A stretch of DNA of 37,149 nt from a virus, in the IMG/VR virus record IMGVR_UViG_3300025849_000093, positions 1 to 37,149 of that record; one strand, given 5' to 3'. The position numbers were made by a program, and so were the translations under genes. This document shows, piece after piece, positions 104-37,121 of the stretch. The notes under the pieces are model-generated. The model searched no databases and was not told the DNA's origin. It was given only the letters and a program-made list of their open reading frames with translations. The stretch's first letter is position 1. Each line of letters opens with the position of its first letter.

Positions 104-478
104 TTATGATACATTACTTTTAGAAGATCTTCTTCTACCCATGCCTACTTTCTTTTTGGCTGTAGTAACTTTATTTTTTTCTTCTGAGCTCATTTTACTC
201 CACGACTTTGGAGATGAACTGTTAACTGTTTTAGAAGGTCTACAAACTTTAGTAGACTTGTTTTCTTCAGAACCACATTCGTTTCCTTTTTCATCTTTCC
301 ACTCTTCTTTAAACCATCTTTTTAAATTAGCTCCAGCTTGAGTTTTTCTTATAGACAGTGGAGATTTTTTACAACTACCTTTACTACCAGGCTTGGTTCC
401 AGCTACTCTCTCGTACCCGCTCCAACAAGGTAATGGACTACTGCCTAATTTATTTTTTATGTCATCTACAATTCTCAT
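104..478 (-). CDS. Small modular Cys/Lys-rich protein, DUF5872-like
   Basis: A 124-residue basic protein built of short Cys-containing modules. Residues 18-36 hold CWSGYERV...GSKGSC. Residues 48-70 hold ANLKRWFKEEW...CGS. Residues 75-124 hold KVCRPSK, then a Lys/Arg-rich stretch ending RRRSSKSNVS. Similar modules occur in small proteins of phages and large eukaryotic viruses; I recall the family as DUF5872, but that name is from memory. No enzymatic motif is visible; the charge suggests nucleic-acid binding (inference). The start overlaps the previous gene's stop as ATGA, so the two are probably translationally coupled. It is a paralogue of the protein at 36562-36849, but with its two main modules in the opposite order. 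Confidence 0.75.
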   Translation of the reverse strand: MRIVDDIKNKLGSSPLPCWSGYERVAGTKPGSKGSCKKSPLSIRKTQAGANLKRWFKEEWKDEKGNECGSEENKSTKVCRPSKTVNSSSPKSWSKMSSEEKNKVTTAKKKVGMGRRRSSKSNVS

Positions 479-636
479 TTCTTACTGCCTTTCTTTTTTC
501 GGCATTTTGCTATCATACCACTAGCATAAGCAGATGGAAATACTTTGTGAGCTTTTTTAGCTTTATAATAACATGAGTCTTTTAAACCCATGGGGCTAGA
601 ATATTTATTTTTAACAATTTTACTTTCTCTTAACAT
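475..636 (-). CDS. Tiny basic protein with PSAYASG motif
   Basis: A 53-residue reading frame, too short for most gene callers, that fills the gap between the giant protein gene and the 104-478 gene. It starts MLRESKIVKN and carries DSCYYKAKKAHKVFPSAYAS followed by GMIAKCRKKKG. The Cys...PSAYA...Cys pattern is shared with the 46-residue protein at 36850-36990, so I treat it as a real paralogue. Its start lies two bases after the stop of the giant gene, and its TGA stop overlaps the next start (ATGA). Function unknown; I recall the PSAYA motif from other small phage proteins. Confidence 0.75.
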   Translation of the reverse strand: MLRESKIVKNKYSSPMGLKDSCYYKAKKAHKVFPSAYASGMIAKCRKKKGSKK

Positions 637-3600: not shown

Positions 3601-6600
3601 AGAATTTTATCTAAGGAAGCATCTGTTAGATTACCTTTTAACATACCTTGAAATAGCTCTGTCATAGTTATAGAATTAGGAACTAAGTGTTCTCCTTTAG
3701 TTATTAAATCTACATAAGCAGAAGGTTTTGTACCGAACGCTGCTTGAACTTTAGCTTCTTCTAAAGTATATTTTTTCTTACCAGTTTTTTTATCAATAGC
3801 ATTTATATTTTGTTTTAATCTTATATCATATCTATCTTTAAACTCTGGAAACTCGTCTATGAATTCTTGAATAGAAGCATCTTGTTGTTCTGTGTCTAGC
3901 TTAAGAAAATTATCTTTACTAAGTCTTTTCTTTTTAAAGCTTTCTATGTCTTGATTACCGTCTATTAAATATAAATAATCAAAACCACTTAAAGCTCTTA
4001 AACCTTTAACAGCACTTGTTTGTAACTGAAAAAATTGAAATAATTGAAGTGGAGTTATTTGTTTTTCATTTTGGTAAGTATCCTGTATCTCCAACATCAA
4101 GTTCTTAAATAACTCTATATTAGCTACATTTGCATCTTTAATCTTTTGCTCAGAGTTTTGTAATAAAGAAAGCTTATTAGCTATATTACCACCACGTAAC
4201 AACGGCGTTAATATTTGTTTAACCTTAGTGAAGTCTTTGTTCATAGGTATAACATTGTTTGCTTTTACATTATTAGTTTTTTTGGTTTTAGCCGATTTAG
4301 CTATTAAAAAATCTTCATAATACTCACCTGGCTTTCCGTTTTCTTTTTGTTTAGCAGGATCTAATAGTCTATTGCTAAAACCTAAAAACTCTAAACTTGA
4401 ATTAAAAGCGTTTATTAAACCTGAATCTATTTTTTTAACAATTATTTGAGCAAAATTGTTCATGCTTTCTGCAGCTGGTTTATTTATAGTTCTTACGCCT
4501 TTGTTCTTGCTAGTGATTATATGATTTTTATTATTTACTTGTTTTAAAAGATTTTCATTTTCTTGTTCTAAAAACTTTTTATTTACTTTAACAAATTCAC
4601 CACCTTGCTCTAATGTAGGATCTTCTTCTAATAACATGTCTATAGCTTTGACAACGTTATCATCTAAACCTTCTATAGCTTGCTGAAACTCAGGTTTATA
4701 ATTGCCATCTTCATCTTTGTATCCAGTAGTGTAAGCTATGTCTAACAGGCTATAAGCGTTTGTCATAAACTCTGAAAGCATGTCTGGCTCCATGACTATA
4801 TCTTTAGCAAAACTATAACCTTCTCCTCTACCTAGCTCTCTAGCTATAAATGCTATCTCTGCTTCTACCTTATCTCTACCAAACTTTTCAGCTCTTTCAT
4901 CTTCCAGCGTTGTAGGTTCGTAACCTTCATCTCCTGGTTTTCTACCTAACTTATCTTCTACTTGAGTATCTAAAGCTTGTCTTAATGCATCTTCTGTAAA
5001 TTCAATAGCAGCTATTTTAGCTAAAGAGTTTCTTTTAGAGTCAGGCCTTTCTGTGTCTACAAAAAAGTCTGTTAAATCTTTAGGGGTTAGCCCAGGTATT
5101 AATTTTCTTTTAGGGTTTCCAGCATAAGGATCTTTAACTCTTGATCCTTCAGCTCTAGACTCTTCTGTTAATGTTCTAGCTTGTTTTCCAGTTTTAGGAT
5201 CTATAACAGGTTCTGTGAGTTTACCTAATCTTTTATTTAAAGTTGTTTGTTGAGCTTTATTTAAAATAGCTGTAGCGTAGGTTTCTATAAAGTTCCTGTA
5301 CTTATCACTAGTTGGGGTACCCATTAAGTTTTTAATATCAGTTTCTAAATCAGCAATACCTGCATTTCTAAGGGCTTTTAAAAACTTACCTGAACTTACA
5401 TCTCCTAATCTAGTTCCTAATGTTCTCTTGGTCTTCTCTATAACGTTGTTATAAAAATCTCCTCCTTCTTCTAAGCCTAAATCTCCTCCTAAATTTACAA
5501 AACTCTGTCTTAGCGATTGTTTTTCTTCTTTGCTAAAATCTTTTTTAGGTGCCTCTTCTTTAAACTCAGATTGCATTTGAAGTGTTTTGGCAGCAACTTC
5601 TGTGGCTCTGTATAAATCAAAATCTTTACTAGCTCCAATAAATTGTCCTAACGTAACTCTTTTTCTATAAGAAGCTGGCATGTCGTCAAAGTATTCATTT
5701 ACTAAACCTAAAACACCACCACCTTTTTTTCTAGTAGATCCCATACCTAAAACTATATCAGAAGCTAAATCTTCTACAGTCACTCCACCTTCTACACGTA
5801 CGCCATCTTCTTGATCAAAAGTCCCTGAAATTTTAGGATTTTCTCTTACTTCGGATTGACCTATTTTAAATCTACCACTTCTTATATAATTTAAAACGTC
5901 ATCATAGAACTTATAAGCTAAATCGCCTCTTGTTCTTGGTTGTGAAGTGTCTTGCTTGTCTATTATGTTTTGTATTTCTATATCTTTAGCTTCATTACGG
6001 TCTTTACTAGCAGCTTCTTTTGATACTACTCTTTCTTTATCAAACTCTAAACCAGCACGAGTCAAGTCGTCTGATATTTCTATACCTTCACTAGCAGCTG
6101 TTCTTTGAGCTCTAGTTAATCTACCTTTATTTATTGACTTATTATAGTCACCTATAAAGTTTAATACATCATTAGCGTTTTTAAATTCTATTTTACCACC
6201 ACCAAAGTCTTGAGATATTCTTCTAAAAGAATTTCTTAAACCATCACCTAAACCTTCTTCTTTAGCTATCAAACCTAGATCAACAAATTCACTAAATAAA
6301 GTAATCACTTCCTCAGCTTCTTTAGCTTCAGTTACTTCACTGTCTCTTTTGTATTTATCTAGCGTATTATTTAAACTTTTTATTAATTGGTTATCTTGTA
6401 AGGATGGGTTTTCACTTAATACTTTTAATCTATCTTTAATAACGTTAGCCATACCAAAAGCTTTTTCAGGGCTGTTTCTTAAAGTGTTTTTCAAAAGCTT
6501 ATGCAATATTTCATGAGCACCAGCAAAGTATCCAACACCATCAGATATTTTTTCTGTGTTAACTAAAGCCAGTTCTTTACCATCTACTTTAACCTCTACA

Positions 6601-27658: not shown

Positions 27659-29884
27659 TTATTTTATTATTTGTGAAATAGATCCTTCGTTATTGTATCT
27701 ATGTATGCCTAATTGAATATCTTTTTTTTGCCTTATTGGTATAGGTCTATATTTGTTCTTATTACAAGCCATAATAGCTAGTCCAGAACTAATAGACGCA
27801 TCGTGCTTTGTTCTATTGTTTATATTAAAACCAGACCAATCATCTAAAGTTCTTTGAAAATACATATTACCTCTACCTGTTTCTATTTCGCCTACGTAGT
27901 TTTCTATATAATTCTCTATAGCAGCCGCGTGTGCTTGTTTAATATCTTCACTTGAATTAGGTATTCCACCTATTTCTTTTTCTGTTATTGATAATTTATT
28001 GTATAATTTATCAGGTCTGTTTATGCTAAAACCTCTATAACCTCTACGTTTTATATAATAAAGTAGTCTAGGCTTATTATTTTCAGCAAGTATTGGCATT
28101 CCATAAAAAACACAAGCCATTAAAACATCTTCAAAAAATATCTCAGCAGTGTCAGGTCTTGCTATATATTCTAAAAAAAATTGATTAGATGGAGCTTCTT
28201 CCATACTAAATTTTGTTAAACCATGCAATGCACCTTTAGACCCTTTGCCATCAACAGTACCTGAAATATCGTAACTATCACATCCAAAAGCACCTATATG
28301 CTCATTGCCTGGATATTTATAACCGTTTTTATTTATAAAACAATTCTGTAAATTTACAGGAGGAACCCACGATAATAAAAATCTACCTTTTTTATTTGGA
28401 TAAAATATAACTTTAGTATCTTTAATTCCATTTTCCCAAGAAAAATTACCTTGAACTAAACCTACACTTTGATTTATTTCTTCGTTGTAATCTATTTGCT
28501 GATATATTCTAGTTAAATTAAATAGACTATCTTTAGTTTCATCTCTAAATGCATGTTTTTCAGTTCTTGGAAACTGTCTGTAATATTCATTTAAAGCATC
28601 TTGATCATGTTTTAGTCCTTCAACCTCGTTGTCCCAGTGTTCAATAACTCCTGTTGTAATTGTTGAACCGTCAATACTTTTGACTGGATCTGATCCTGCA
28701 ACGAAGATAGGTGATCCGAAAGTATCCATGAATCCTTCGTAGTTCCATTCCATAGGTATGAACAAGCTATAGAGTCCAGAAGCTGTCTGTCCGTTTTTAT
28801 TTCTTTTTTCAACGTCTGAATTGTAGTATAACTTTTTAAAATTGTTTCCACCTTTATCTAATGCGTTTGAAGTTGAGCCCATCATACACTTACCTACGAT
28901 TCTTGATCCTAGCCTTAATGTTGTTTTTGTAACTCGCCAGTTGTTTAATATATTATCAGGTCTTTCCCATTTACCACTTTCATCGTGAGCTAATATTTTA
29001 AGTTTCTCACCATCATAAGAGTTATCACCAGTATTTTTCCAGTCAATAGTTGTATCAAGCCCGTCAAGTTCTATTAATTGCTCATTACTCTCAAGCTTTC
29101 TTCTAGTAAGTTTTGAAGCCGGAACCCTATACGCCAGTTCTGTCTTAGGACGATCCATACCGTCTTGGATCGGCTTGAAGAAAAACGGATAGTTAACGGA
29201 TATTGGTACGACTTTATCTGTAAACATTTTTTTAGCATCTGATCCAGATTTAGATAATATACCGAATCTGGCGTCACTTGATATTGTCGCTTGATTGACA
29301 AGCTCTGCCGATGACATAAATGAAAATCCAGACCTTCTGTTTTTAAGGTAGCACATCCCGTAACATCTGTTATCTGCCTTGCATGCTTCCCAAAATATAA
29401 AGAATAATCTATTTGCTTCTCTATAATCTGGTGCTCCAACGTCGATCTTTGACCATTGTAAGTACATGTAATGAGTACCAGTAATATAAGTAGGTAAACC
29501 TTTATTGTAAAACCAATAACCTTGTTCTCTTTTTGTAAATTCTTTATCAATATAATCATACCACTTTTCTTTAAACTCAGTGTCATGTTCTTCCCAATCA
29601 AACCTACTTTTAATTCTACTTAATTCTTTTGGATACTCTTGCTTTTCCCAGTATTGCTCCGCTTTTTCTTTACTTCGTTTAAACGGTTCATTTGTTGCTG
29701 GTAAAGCAATCCTGAGATTTTGTATTTCAATGATTTGTTCAATTTGTCCAGTTTTACTTATTACTATAAAATCATAATCAGAGTTATAACCATACTCCCA
29801 TTTTTTGAAACGATTTTGTTTCTTTAATATCTTAGGGTTAATTAAATCTTTAACCTCTTTCCAAAGAGTTTGCTCGTAAATCAT
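27659..29884 (-). CDS. terL: Terminase large subunit (TerL)
   Basis: A 741-residue DNA-packaging motor with an ATPase and a nuclease domain. KNRRSGFSF (181-189) takes the Walker A place but lacks the usual GK(S/T). ILAHDES (297-303) fits Walker B with the catalytic acid. The RNase H-like nuclease shows acidic residues at D536/D539 (GCDSYDI), E601 (LAENNK) and D695 (TKHDAS). The start overlaps the upstream stop as ATGA, and the stop abuts the portal ATG. The protein cuts the concatemer and pumps DNA into the head through the portal. Confidence is high from length, motif order and position. Confidence 0.85.
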   Translation of the reverse strand: MIYEQTLWKEVKDLINPKILKKQNRFKKWEYGYNSDYDFIVISKTGQIEQIIEIQNLRIALPATNEPFKRSKEKAEQYWEKQEYPKELSRIKSRFDWEEHDTEFKEKWYDYIDKEFTKREQGYWFYNKGLPTYITGTHYMYLQWSKIDVGAPDYREANRLFFIFWEACKADNRCYGMCYLKNRRSGFSFMSSAELVNQATISSDARFGILSKSGSDAKKMFTDKVVPISVNYPFFFKPIQDGMDRPKTELAYRVPASKLTRRKLESNEQLIELDGLDTTIDWKNTGDNSYDGEKLKILAHDESGKWERPDNILNNWRVTKTTLRLGSRIVGKCMMGSTSNALDKGGNNFKKLYYNSDVEKRNKNGQTASGLYSLFIPMEWNYEGFMDTFGSPIFVAGSDPVKSIDGSTITTGVIEHWDNEVEGLKHDQDALNEYYRQFPRTEKHAFRDETKDSLFNLTRIYQQIDYNEEINQSVGLVQGNFSWENGIKDTKVIFYPNKKGRFLLSWVPPVNLQNCFINKNGYKYPGNEHIGAFGCDSYDISGTVDGKGSKGALHGLTKFSMEEAPSNQFFLEYIARPDTAEIFFEDVLMACVFYGMPILAENNKPRLLYYIKRRGYRGFSINRPDKLYNKLSITEKEIGGIPNSSEDIKQAHAAAIENYIENYVGEIETGRGNMYFQRTLDDWSGFNINNRTKHDASISSGLAIMACNKNKYRPIPIRQKKDIQLGIHRYNNEGSISQIIK

Positions 29885-31480: not shown

Positions 31481-33631
31481 TTAACTTGGTACATCTGTTG
31501 TTCTATCTAATACATCCATATTTTCACTAATTCCATTTGCTGTAGAGTAAGGAGCATCTCCAACAATTTCAATAGATGAAGTTCCTAAACCATTTCCAGA
31601 ATATCCAACACCATTTGTAATGGCATCATTTGTCATATTACCAGCACTTACACCATCATTATTTCCAATCTCATCTAAACAATCCCAATTAATATTAAAA
31701 GAACTATTAGAACCTAGCTGCCACCAATTTACTGGAGCAGTTCCTGAGAAAGTGTTTAAGTTAGATGGAACACCTTGATTATAAACTTCTGTTATTTCAG
31801 TTGAAGTTAAGTTAGTATTCCAAATAGCAGCGTTTGACATTTCGCCATCAAAAAAACCAGTACTATCACCTCTTGCTCCTATTTGTAAATTGTTAGAGGC
31901 ATTGTATTGAGAGCTAGTAGAAGTTGGTGTTGTGTCTACTGATTGACCATCAAGATAAATTTCTAAAGAAGTTGATGGAGTAAAAACACCAACAAGGTGA
32001 TGCCAGTTAGTATCTGGAGTGTGTGAGTAACTTGCAGATACAACAGAACTTGCGGTTGGTGCTATAAAAAAATAAATAACTCCTGTGTTGGTCATACCAA
32101 GACAAAAACCTCTACTACCATTATTACCTAATTTTCCAACACCCCCAGCAGAATTGCTTCCTCCTTGTCCTTTAAACCAATAACTAACAGTCATAGCTCC
32201 AGTAATTTGTAAACTACTATCATTACCACAATTAATTACATCGTTAGTTCCATCAAAACTTAATGCGTACGGACTATAACCAGATGTGTGCTGTAAGTTG
32301 CTTTGAACTAAGTTAGCTGAAGTCATTCCTGAACTTGTTCCGTCGTTGCTACCAGCAGAATCTTTTATTGTCCAGTTAGTACCATCAAAAGTGTCTTGTG
32401 CGTTTAGCTTATACCAAGCTGTGGGAGCAGCTCCAGAAAAAGTATTTAAATTAAGTGGAGAACCTTGATTATAAACTTCTGTAACTTCTGTAGAAGATAA
32501 AGTTGTTCCACTCCAAATAGCTACATTAGACATATCTCCATCTAAATCAAAACTACCACTTGGTCTTGCTCCAATATCTCCAATTGATACTCCTGTTACG
32601 TCAGCTTGTGAGCCAAAAGTGTATTGCGTTCCGTTAATATAAAGCAAAGGTGTTGTACCATCTCCAGTAATAATAAAATTATACCAAACATTAGATTCTA
32701 TTGCTCGATTAGTGACTATATTTATGTGTCCAGCAGCAGTGCCTTGAAGGTAAACTCTAAAATTACCAGAACTATTCTCAAGTAAAGGATAAAACTTATT
32801 GTTGCTATTAGACAATAGAATTGCAAATTGACCAGTTGGCACAACTCTTAATTTAAACCAAAAAGAAACAGTTTTGTTGTCTGGTAATAAAATTTCACTA
32901 TCAAGGTTAAATACCTGTCCAGTTCCATCAAAATTAAATACATAATCTTGTAAACTATTATTTGGAACTAAATAAGATTGAACTGGTGGGTCAGGTTCTG
33001 TTGTATTATTTGAAGCTGTTTGGTCGCCTAATTGATAGTAAGATACTGGCTTAGGTGATAACGACATTGGATTTGTAACAGCTGTTCCACCACCATAAAG
33101 AGTAGCTACAGAGTTTGTTCCTGTTGCTGGTAATGCATAATCAAAAAAACAAGTTTGGTCAAGTTTTCCACTCCAAGACGAAACGCCACCAGCTCTACTA
33201 GATAAGAATATATCAGAAGTATTATTAGTGTAAACTGGCGTTTGAGTAAATGCATTTGTAACTGTTAAAACTCCATTTTGATAACCTTTATATTCTGTTG
33301 ATGTAACTACATAACAAATATGCTGCCAACTATTTAACACAACTGAAATTCTATTAGTGTTTTTAGATTTACTGCCAAAATATGTGTAAAGTGTTAAGTC
33401 GGTAAATGAATAAATTTCAAAATTGTTAAGGGTTTTAGATATTATGTGTTTAGTTTGATTGATTGAAGTGTTATACCAAAACGAAATAGTAAATCCTTCG
33501 TTTGTGCCTTCAAAAGCGTTTCCTAAATTAACATTTGACACGTTATCAAACTCCATAGAATAGTTAGAAACTAAACTTTGATTTTTATTGTTTGGTATTC
33601 TCCAAGCGTCATTAAAATATTCTGTTGCCAT
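31481..33631 (-). CDS. Triple LamG-domain receptor-binding or fibre protein
   Basis: A 716-residue protein with three concanavalin-like (LamG) domains at about residues 20-200, 235-400 and 455-625. Each shows hallmarks such as SMEFDNVSNVNLGNAFEGTN, TISFWYNTS or SYWFKGQGG. Domains two and three end with a shared block, MSN(A/V)AIW...STE(I/V)TEVYNQG, then NLNTFSG.AP..W. The N-terminus is EYFNDAWRIPNNKNQ and the C-terminus MDVLDRTTDVPS. LamG folds bind glycans, so a role in host attachment is likely. It lies beside another LamG protein. The repeats suggest growth by duplication. Confidence 0.7.
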   Translation of the reverse strand: MATEYFNDAWRIPNNKNQSLVSNYSMEFDNVSNVNLGNAFEGTNEGFTISFWYNTSINQTKHIISKTLNNFEIYSFTDLTLYTYFGSKSKNTNRISVVLNSWQHICYVVTSTEYKGYQNGVLTVTNAFTQTPVYTNNTSDIFLSSRAGGVSSWSGKLDQTCFFDYALPATGTNSVATLYGGGTAVTNPMSLSPKPVSYYQLGDQTASNNTTEPDPPVQSYLVPNNSLQDYVFNFDGTGQVFNLDSEILLPDNKTVSFWFKLRVVPTGQFAILLSNSNNKFYPLLENSSGNFRVYLQGTAAGHINIVTNRAIESNVWYNFIITGDGTTPLLYINGTQYTFGSQADVTGVSIGDIGARPSGSFDLDGDMSNVAIWSGTTLSSTEVTEVYNQGSPLNLNTFSGAAPTAWYKLNAQDTFDGTNWTIKDSAGSNDGTSSGMTSANLVQSNLQHTSGYSPYALSFDGTNDVINCGNDSSLQITGAMTVSYWFKGQGGSNSAGGVGKLGNNGSRGFCLGMTNTGVIYFFIAPTASSVVSASYSHTPDTNWHHLVGVFTPSTSLEIYLDGQSVDTTPTSTSSQYNASNNLQIGARGDSTGFFDGEMSNAAIWNTNLTSTEITEVYNQGVPSNLNTFSGTAPVNWWQLGSNSSFNINWDCLDEIGNNDGVSAGNMTNDAITNGVGYSGNGLGTSSIEIVGDAPYSTANGISENMDVLDRTTDVPS

Positions 33632-35589: not shown

Positions 35590-35952
35590 TTATTTTTTTT
35601 CTTTTTTATAGGCTTCCTGTTCCCAAGGGAAATTTTTACTTCCTTCTTTGATCCATTTACCTTTATATTTAATCTTATTGTTTTTTCTTAGATATTTAAT
35701 ACCGTCCCAAGTGACGCTATTGTCAGTGTAATCTAAACCTTTTCTACCATTTGACTTATCGAAGTCTTTAAACTGCTTGACATGAACTTCTTCATGGCTA
35801 ATTACTTCTTCTACTTGTTTAGGGTCTTTTATTTTATTGTTAATAACAATAGTTCCATTATTATTGGCTCTACCTAAAACACCGTCTTCTTCGTCAATAT
35901 GATAAACAGGAGTTATATTAGTTTCGTAAGGTGCTTTTATTTTAAAACCCAT
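35590..35952 (-). CDS. Small HExxH protein, putative metallopeptidase
   Basis: A 120-residue protein with HEEVH at residues 53-57 (EEVISHEEVHVKQFKDFD), a typical zincin metal site. A possible third ligand is E111 or E113 in PWEQEAYKK. Before the site is VLGRANNNGTIVINNKIKD, and after it LDYTDNSVTWDGIKYLRKN. Proteins of this size with the HExxH and WExEAY pair occur in other phages; a peptidase role is inferred from the motif alone. It sits two genes upstream of the holin, which leaves a lysis or virion-processing role open. It overlaps the upstream stop by one base (TAATG). Confidence 0.55.
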   Translation of the reverse strand: MGFKIKAPYETNITPVYHIDEEDGVLGRANNNGTIVINNKIKDPKQVEEVISHEEVHVKQFKDFDKSNGRKGLDYTDNSVTWDGIKYLRKNNKIKYKGKWIKEGSKNFPWEQEAYKKEKK

Positions 35953-36143
35953 TACTTTCTTTTACAACCAAAATTATTAGCATAATTAGCCATCTTAACT
36001 ACAGCTGGCTTATATTTCTTAGTATTCTTCATCACTTTACTAGCTGCAGAACAAGTAGACTTACCTGGCATATTTTTCTCTACCCAAGCAGTGAATTTAC
36101 CTTCGTTCTTTTCTTTTATTTCTGGAAATTCTTTTTTAGCCAT
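35952..36143 (-). CDS. Small Cys-containing protein (KNMPGKSTCSAASKV type)
   Basis: A 63-residue basic protein. KFTAWVEKNMPGKSTCSAAS is followed by KVMKNTKKYKPAVVKMANYA and NNFGCKRK. Two Cys residues frame the conserved part. I recall the same small family from marine phages, with no known role. It is joined to the next gene by TAATG, as elsewhere in this cassette. A small nucleic-acid-binding protein is possible but unproven. Confidence 0.65.
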   Translation of the reverse strand: MAKKEFPEIKEKNEGKFTAWVEKNMPGKSTCSAASKVMKNTKKYKPAVVKMANYANNFGCKRK

Positions 36144-36301: not shown

Positions 36302-36562
36302 TTAAAATCTTGAACAACACCATCTTTTTCTAGCAGCTCTACCTCTTTCACCATCCCAGCTTTTTGATCTACTACAAAATGCTTTTTGTCTTTTATAGGC
36401 TTTTGTACCTACTTTTACATCACATTTAGTTACAGCTGTTTTAAGTTTACTACCAGGATTAGCTTTTCTATAAGCTTTAACACCTTTAGATGTCATACCA
36501 GCACCTTCATCTGTACTTCTGAAATTACGACCTTTTCCTTTTGTAGTTTTTCTTATAGCCAT
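36302..36562 (-). CDS. Small basic protein, DUF6321-like
   Basis: An 86-residue protein with GAGMTSKGVKAYRKANPGSK (20-39), TAVT, then KRQKAFCSRSKSWDG (57-71) and a basic end, RAARKRWCCSRF. The GxG(M/L)...G...Y...PGS.L...T...R...FC.R series matches small proteins of phages and large algal viruses that I recall as DUF6321; the name is from memory. It is strongly basic and may bind nucleic acid. It is coupled to its upstream neighbour by a one-base overlap. The last five residues after KRWC look unusual for the family. Confidence 0.6.
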   Translation of the reverse strand: MAIRKTTKGKGRNFRSTDEGAGMTSKGVKAYRKANPGSKLKTAVTKCDVKVGTKAYKRQKAFCSRSKSWDGERGRAARKRWCCSRF

Positions 36563-36849
36563 TACTTTTTCTTTTTTGGTGACTCACCACATTTTAAACT
36601 AGGATTAGCCACTTGTCTCCAGTCTTGCTTAACCCAAGTTTTTAAACTACCACCACTACTAGTTCCAGTAACATTACTTTTACTAGATCTTTTGTATTTA
36701 CCAGCAGCACCAGCTTTTCTTTTAGCACTTATAACAGCTGCTCTTTCAGATTTACTCATGCTTTTTATCTTAGCATAAGGTAAGCAAACTTTTTTAGTAC
36801 CTCCGCCTTTGGCTTTTGTTTTTCTAACTTTTGTAAATGGTGATTTCAT
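36562..36849 (-). CDS. Small Cys/Lys-rich protein, DUF5872-like, module order swapped
   Basis: A 95-residue basic protein. KKVCLPYAKIKSMSKSERAA (19-38) leads into RKAGAAGKYKRSSKSNVTG (44-62). Then comes GSLKTWVKQDWRQVANPSLK with CGE (67-89). The first module pairs with KVCRPSK...RRRSSKSNVS of the left-end paralogue, the second with ANLKRWFKEEW...CGS, but the order is reversed. Function unknown; probably not enzymatic. It follows the PSAYA-type gene immediately (stop ends one base before this start), the same pair order as at 104-636. Confidence 0.75.
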   Translation of the reverse strand: MKSPFTKVRKTKAKGGGTKKVCLPYAKIKSMSKSERAAVISAKRKAGAAGKYKRSSKSNVTGTSSGGSLKTWVKQDWRQVANPSLKCGESPKKKK

Positions 36850-36990
36850 TTAACACTTACCTTTACCTTGTTGTTTAGAAGCCCACATATTAGCATAGGC
36901 TGATGGGTATACATCAAACTTTTTCTTAGCTGCAGCCTTGCAAGATGCTGATAGTTTTCTTAATGCTGGTGATAAATCTTTATTTTTCAT
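36850..36990 (-). CDS. Tiny PSAYA-motif protein
   Basis: A 46-residue frame below usual size limits: MKNKDLSPALRKLSASCKAA, then AKKKFDVYPSAYANMWASKQ and QGKGKC. The C....K.F.VYPSAYAN.WA.K pattern is shared with the 53-residue protein at 475-636, which supports it as a gene. Its start overlaps the stop of the 43-residue gene upstream (TAATG), and its own stop lies directly before the next start. Role unknown. Confidence 0.75.
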   Translation of the reverse strand: MKNKDLSPALRKLSASCKAAAKKKFDVYPSAYANMWASKQQGKGKC

Positions 36991-37121
36991 TATTTTTTAC
37001 AGTCTTTAGATTTTTTGTGATCATAACCTTTTTTCTTTAAAGAAAGATGTTTTTTCATAGTTTTAGCCATTACTTCTTTACAATCTTTATACATCATGTG
37101 AGGTTTATATTCTTTTTCCAT
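36990..37121 (-). CDS. Tiny Lys/His/Cys-rich protein
   Basis: A 43-residue frame, MEKEYKPHMMYKDCKEVMAK then TMKKHLSLKKKGYDHKKSKD and CKK. Two Cys and several His residues could bind metal (inference). It shares the TAATG coupling style of its neighbours, which is the main reason to accept it. No family recognised. Confidence 0.6.
   Translation of the reverse strand: MEKEYKPHMMYKDCKEVMAKTMKKHLSLKKKGYDHKKSKDCKK

Follow-up and report, generated by a model that had tools for sequence, protein, structure and literature searches.

A DUF5872-related gene pair at both ends of a podovirus contig: two module orders, constant pairing and a change of lineage within terL

Why should a single phage contig carry two versions of the same small gene pair, one at each end of its structural genes, and what could the encoded proteins be doing there? 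The DNA analyzed, here called the window, is the whole IMG/VR record IMGVR_UViG_3300025849_000093 (37,149 bases, without end repeats), whose terminase, portal and capsid genes have their kin among podoviruses of Flavobacteriia; the portal shares 48% identity with MW202828 and 41% with the “elemo” phages of Flavobacterium, which are about 60 kb long. Our reading, to which we give a probability of roughly 0.6, is that the pair represents a split DUF5872 unit, held together by a cysteine bridge and contributing virion modules, and that it is doubled here through the joining of two phage lineages within terL.

The two pairs and their modules

An initial annotation had placed, at either end of the window and in the same order and orientation, a tiny PSAYA-motif gene and after it a gene for a Cys/Lys-rich, DUF5872-like protein. 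All four reading frames are open at those positions, each PSAYA gene precedes a larger gene for a basic protein on its own strand, and about 36 kb of structural genes does separate the left pair from the right. The features are as follows.

104..478, minus strand: left F-B-C gene, in DUF5872 order, 124 aa, four Cys; closes the late block
113..253, minus strand: module C of the left gene, TKVCRPS...RRRSSKSN (profiles, shuffles, profile-profile comparison)
272..334, minus strand: module B of the left gene, GANLKRWFKEEWKDEKGNECG (profiles, shuffles, profile-profile comparison)
362..430, minus strand: module F of the left gene, PCWSGYERVAGTKPGSKGSCKKS
475..636, minus strand: gene for module A of the left pair (PSAYA protein of 53 aa with two Cys)
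28800..29100, no strand: mosaic breakpoint within terL (27659-29884), with a BC-lineage phage to the left and a CB-lineage phage to the right
36302..36562, minus strand: gene for module E, an 86-aa DUF6321 protein; third gene of the right cassette (Pfam match)
36562..36849, minus strand: gene for the permuted C-B protein of the right pair, 95 aa with two Cys
36586..36654, minus strand: module B of the right gene, GGSLKTWVKQDWRQVANPSLKCG, C-terminal here (profiles, shuffles, profile-profile comparison)
36673..36795, minus strand: module C of the right gene, KKVCLP...RSSKSN, N-terminal here (profiles, shuffles, profile-profile comparison)
36850..36990, minus strand: gene for module A of the right pair (PSAYA protein of 46 aa with two Cys; phrog_27331)

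The left A and F-B-C genes overlap by 4 nt, while the right A and C-B genes abut directly. A search for a terminator 3' of the left pair gave no support on the coding strand. On either side of the right cassette lies one more tiny protein (35952-36143 and 36990-37121), each very basic and containing two cysteines exactly. Beside the cassette there is also a 120-aa protein (35590-35952) with an HEEVH motif (HExxH, zincin-like); its peptidase matches are weak only, and 64 of the fetched loci encode a relative. Elsewhere in the window, a 96-nt direct repeat (31715-31810 and 32405-32500, 77% identity) lies within a 716-aa ORF (31481-33631).

All four cassette proteins are short and Lys-rich, and their likeness could in principle be one of mere composition. 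The left and right PSAYA proteins reach a Smith-Waterman score of 66, against 26.7 ± 5.3 in shuffles; the corresponding values are 47 against 19.4 ± 4.2 for module B and 67 against 28.1 ± 5.2 for module C, and none of 5000 shuffles reached the real score in any of the three cases. The similarity thus passed the comparison with shuffled Lys-rich sequences that the initial annotation had proposed. Profile-profile comparison gave E = 5e-10 for B with B and E = 3e-6 for C with C, with the B-C cross-comparisons at background; its permuted-column controls gave 0/60, and modules A, B, C and F had zero hits among 12,240 shuffled ORFs. On the strength of the shuffle and permuted-column controls, we reject the explanation by composition, which has a negligible probability.

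When the larger proteins are aligned by BLASTP, their matching segments come in swapped order, and judged by sequence the left F-B-C and right C-B proteins are circular permutations of one another. The claim that the same two kinds of protein stand at both ends therefore needs to be divided: the modules are homologous, but the larger proteins are permuted and not collinear. Starting from the right copy, module profiles retrieved the left family almost completely (B 161/161, C 159/160, with 229 A proteins shared). In the loci that had been fetched by then, the ORFs showed the order BC in 159 cases, CB in 66 and CBE in 15. A tree of modules B and C, with 169 distinct sequences, put the 55 CB and the 114 BC forms apart without any misplacement; such a clean split is consistent with a single permutation. 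A further module of the left protein, F (CWxGYxRVxGTxxGxxGSC), is N-terminal there, and in relatives it is found in the arrangements FCB, CBFE, FCBE and FA. The comparison provides a natural instance of circular permutation in a protein of fewer than 100 residues.

Pairing, fusion and the Pfam families

That the two proteins work as a pair, as had been suggested, is strongly supported. A module A gene lies upstream of the BC or CB gene, on the same strand, in 223 of 223 testable loci (78/78, 67/67 and 78/78), where many loci had been fetched through a match to one half and the test was the presence of the other half. Where BC or CB had served to fetch the loci, module A was found at no other position. 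The cleaner sample is a separate genome-contig scan made with BC alone, in which A is upstream in 14 of 15 loci and the fifteenth (L394) has A, B and C fused. Pairing of the A and BC/CB genes is obligatory. In that fifteenth locus a single ORF (3809-4195) joins A-like, B and C segments without the usual cysteines, with its A segment called by eye.

The pairing, whose co-conservation was another check proposed earlier, is also supported by Pfam, since DUF5872 (PF19197) turns out to be both halves in one chain. Taken singly, an A protein scores 43.9 bits over its columns 1-45 and a BC protein 53.3 bits over columns 55-112, against a cut-off of 27.5; the pair of phage CRP-7, when joined into one chain, matches columns 10-92. 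In the window, the left F-B-C gene matches DUF5872 with 46.6 bits (E = 6e-12; curated cut-off 27.5), whereas the right C-B gene has no Pfam hit and stays below the DUF5872 cut-off, its homology resting on modules B and C. Of the statement that both larger proteins are DUF5872-like, the left half holds in Pfam's own terms and the right half does not. Nor is the A-B-C order found in a single chain in the window: the left cassette keeps the order in two genes, and the right cassette has two genes and the order C-B. The third gene of the right cassette (36302-36562) encodes a protein that matches DUF6321 (PF19846) with 35.1 bits, above its cut-off of 28.5. To interpret, the A gene and the B+C gene are probably the split halves of a single functional unit, that of the DUF5872 family, and DUF6321 (module E) would normally accompany it.

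Two lineages joined within terL

The initial annotation took the doubling as an old duplication or a repeated acquisition and not as an assembly duplicate. As stated, this is not supported, since the contig switches from one phage lineage to another within terL. To the left of terL the window is nearest to BC phages (MCP 93% and portal 86% to record G010), and to the right it is nearest to a CB phage, G043, mostly at 82–100%, except for the variable genes at about 31.2–34.8 kb. Around terL, the nucleotide identity with G043 is 64–84% at first and climbs to mostly 88–99% at about 28.8–29.1 kb, in a segment that is rich in 40-mers common to both lineages. In this mosaic window, the breakpoint at which two phage lineages are joined falls inside terL, whose reading frame stays open throughout the switch.

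Duplication within one phage lineage, followed by divergence and permutation, would account for two homologous pairs that keep their order and orientation. It is rejected because the tree and the per-gene comparison put the copies in different lineages, each nearest to a different set of phages; the copies are neither mutual nearest kin nor found together in sister genomes, the change of lineage falls between them, and we consider this origin very improbable. Relatives have one copy apiece. The B+C gene is single in each of 83 related records except one of 129.5 kb, and module A is single in 44 of 46 records, the exceptions being the window and the 129.5-kb record, which has two terminases. 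There are two recurrent slots in relatives, one after the gp2865 gene (the left position) and one upstream of gp120, gp149 and terL (the right position), and either BC or CB may occupy either of them. The 129.5-kb record (G013, IMGVR_UViG_3300047157_000162, 129,537 bases) has A, BC, E and terL twice, one terL being in two pieces, with the doubled genes about 62–64 kb apart; it is probably two joined phage genomes.

The join itself could have arisen in a natural recombinant, in which an A+BC phage swapped everything upstream of mid-terL with an A+CB+E phage and so has both forms. Phage genomes are mosaic, homologous exchange also favors conserved stretches such as terL, and the terL frame is unbroken; on the other hand, 20 of about 50 related loci (L303-L381) end within terL at window positions 28.5–29.3 kb, as expected for an assembly fork, and both forms or the same join are seen in no other record. 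The latter count is 0/56, the window's portal type being absent from all 56 loci that have a right-lineage gene and a portal, although records very close to the window may be missing from the collection searches, which weakens it. Since contig ends cluster in terL and no relative has the same join, we regard a chimeric contig as the probable explanation of the doubling, and a natural recombinant as rather unlikely. Both forms would then stand in one record through the joining of two lineages in terL, not through duplication. The denial of an assembly duplicate is thus correct in that neither copy is a recent duplicate of the other, and misleading in that their doubling is probably due to a chimera, or else to a recombinant.

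A circular genome, which was expected to bring the copies close together, would not do so if the lengths of the longer related records are a guide: at about 60–68 kb, they would still leave some 25–30 kb between the copies. What this part of the analysis adds is that terL is a fork point at which marine phage contigs break and may be misjoined, and genes that appear doubled in contigs of this kind call for checks at the level of reads.

Cysteines, charge and comparison with known systems

The cysteines of modules B and C are retained together: in the distinct BC and CB sequences both are kept in 164 and both are absent in 4, and one of them alone occurs just in a truncated ORF. They are 9–13 residues apart in BC and 63–66 in CB, near both ends of the permuted unit. 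As they lie beside the cut point of the backbone in the permuted form, we infer that the pair bridges B and C, and such a bridge (disulfide or metal) would hold the two modules together in either encoded order. Its need is not universal, since four sequences have lost both cysteines and L394 has none. A metal site common to A and BC was also considered and is less likely: of the four BC proteins that lack both cysteines, three were checked and their A partners keep both, although in L394 all are lost.

The four window proteins have a net charge of about +14 to +26 per 100 residues, unlike most of the structural proteins, which are acidic. A separate feature of composition is the tripeptide SP plus a hydrophobic residue, found 5.6 times per 1000 aa in module-bearing ORFs of all loci, 1.2 times in other ORFs and 1.3 times in shuffles; in the window, it is enriched at 104-636 and 36562-36990. 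According to the proposed model, A and B+C are late, very basic mini-proteins, with two cysteines in A and one each in B and C, that would be built into or onto the virion, probably at the head, where their positive charge would let them contact packaged DNA. It is the charge that suggests this DNA association, and high charge by itself is no proof of contact. As a best guess at function, they would be late, basic, cysteine-paired virion modules that may touch DNA.

The gene context fits a late role. In cultured phages the pair is near the terL, portal, scaffold and capsid genes: P-SCSP2 has its A, BC and E genes between the scaffold and capsid genes, and CRP-7 has its A+B pair just upstream of terL. 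Small basic proteins encoded near terminase, scaffold and portal genes could equally be late factors that act in the cell, in packaging, capsid assembly or on host nucleic acid, and are not parts of the virion. We hold this to be a possible but less favored explanation, because the same modules are present in S-SCSM1 gp029 and S-B68 GC0119, annotated as “virion protein” and “structural protein”, respectively. The virion status of gp029 is that given by the annotation of its record; for S-SCSM1 as a whole, mass spectrometry of virions is reported to have identified 45 proteins (PMC9602691). By analogy with this cyanophage protein, the earlier idea that the pair is packaged gains indirect support, and a virion role appears likely for the DUF5872/DUF6321 unit. 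PDB and NCBIfam sequence searches gave nothing useful, and no solved structure was found; PADLOC, with a library that does not include counter-defence, gave no match to a known anti-phage defence component.

Two anonymous families, DUF5872 and DUF6321, therefore become parts of one conserved late-gene unit in many marine phages. Against the Pfam model of DUF5872, in which columns 1-45 are module A and 55-112 are B + C, the left pair of the window matches both halves but has them as two genes, and the right copy, with B and C swapped, is unmatched. The DUF6321 protein is a separate gene of the right cassette, whereas fusion to CB is frequent in relatives; no usable literature on DUF6321, PF19846 or Syn9 gp114 was found. 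Four PHROG families (phrog_27331, phrog_727, phrog_3477 and phrog_38880) match significantly across the PSAYA core, all with function unassigned, and none describes the pair or the permutation. DUF5872 is also annotated in the giant virus CpV-BQ1 (PMC12085832). To hypothesize, and only tentatively, A, B, C, E and F may be about five short basic modules with conserved cysteines that build a virion component of phages of marine bacteria and of giant algal viruses; their encoding would range from three separate mini-genes to one large protein, and permutation would be tolerated by way of the cysteine bridge. Among the closest known counterparts of the window cassettes are large proteins of cyanomyoviruses, which have a BC-like segment (E = 1.5e-9 against BC) and module A in one chain, module E in three of the four examined, and F-like segments noted by eye and unscored. 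Unlike the window, a podovirus in which the modules are separate mini-genes, these T4-like phages carry them in one large polypeptide.
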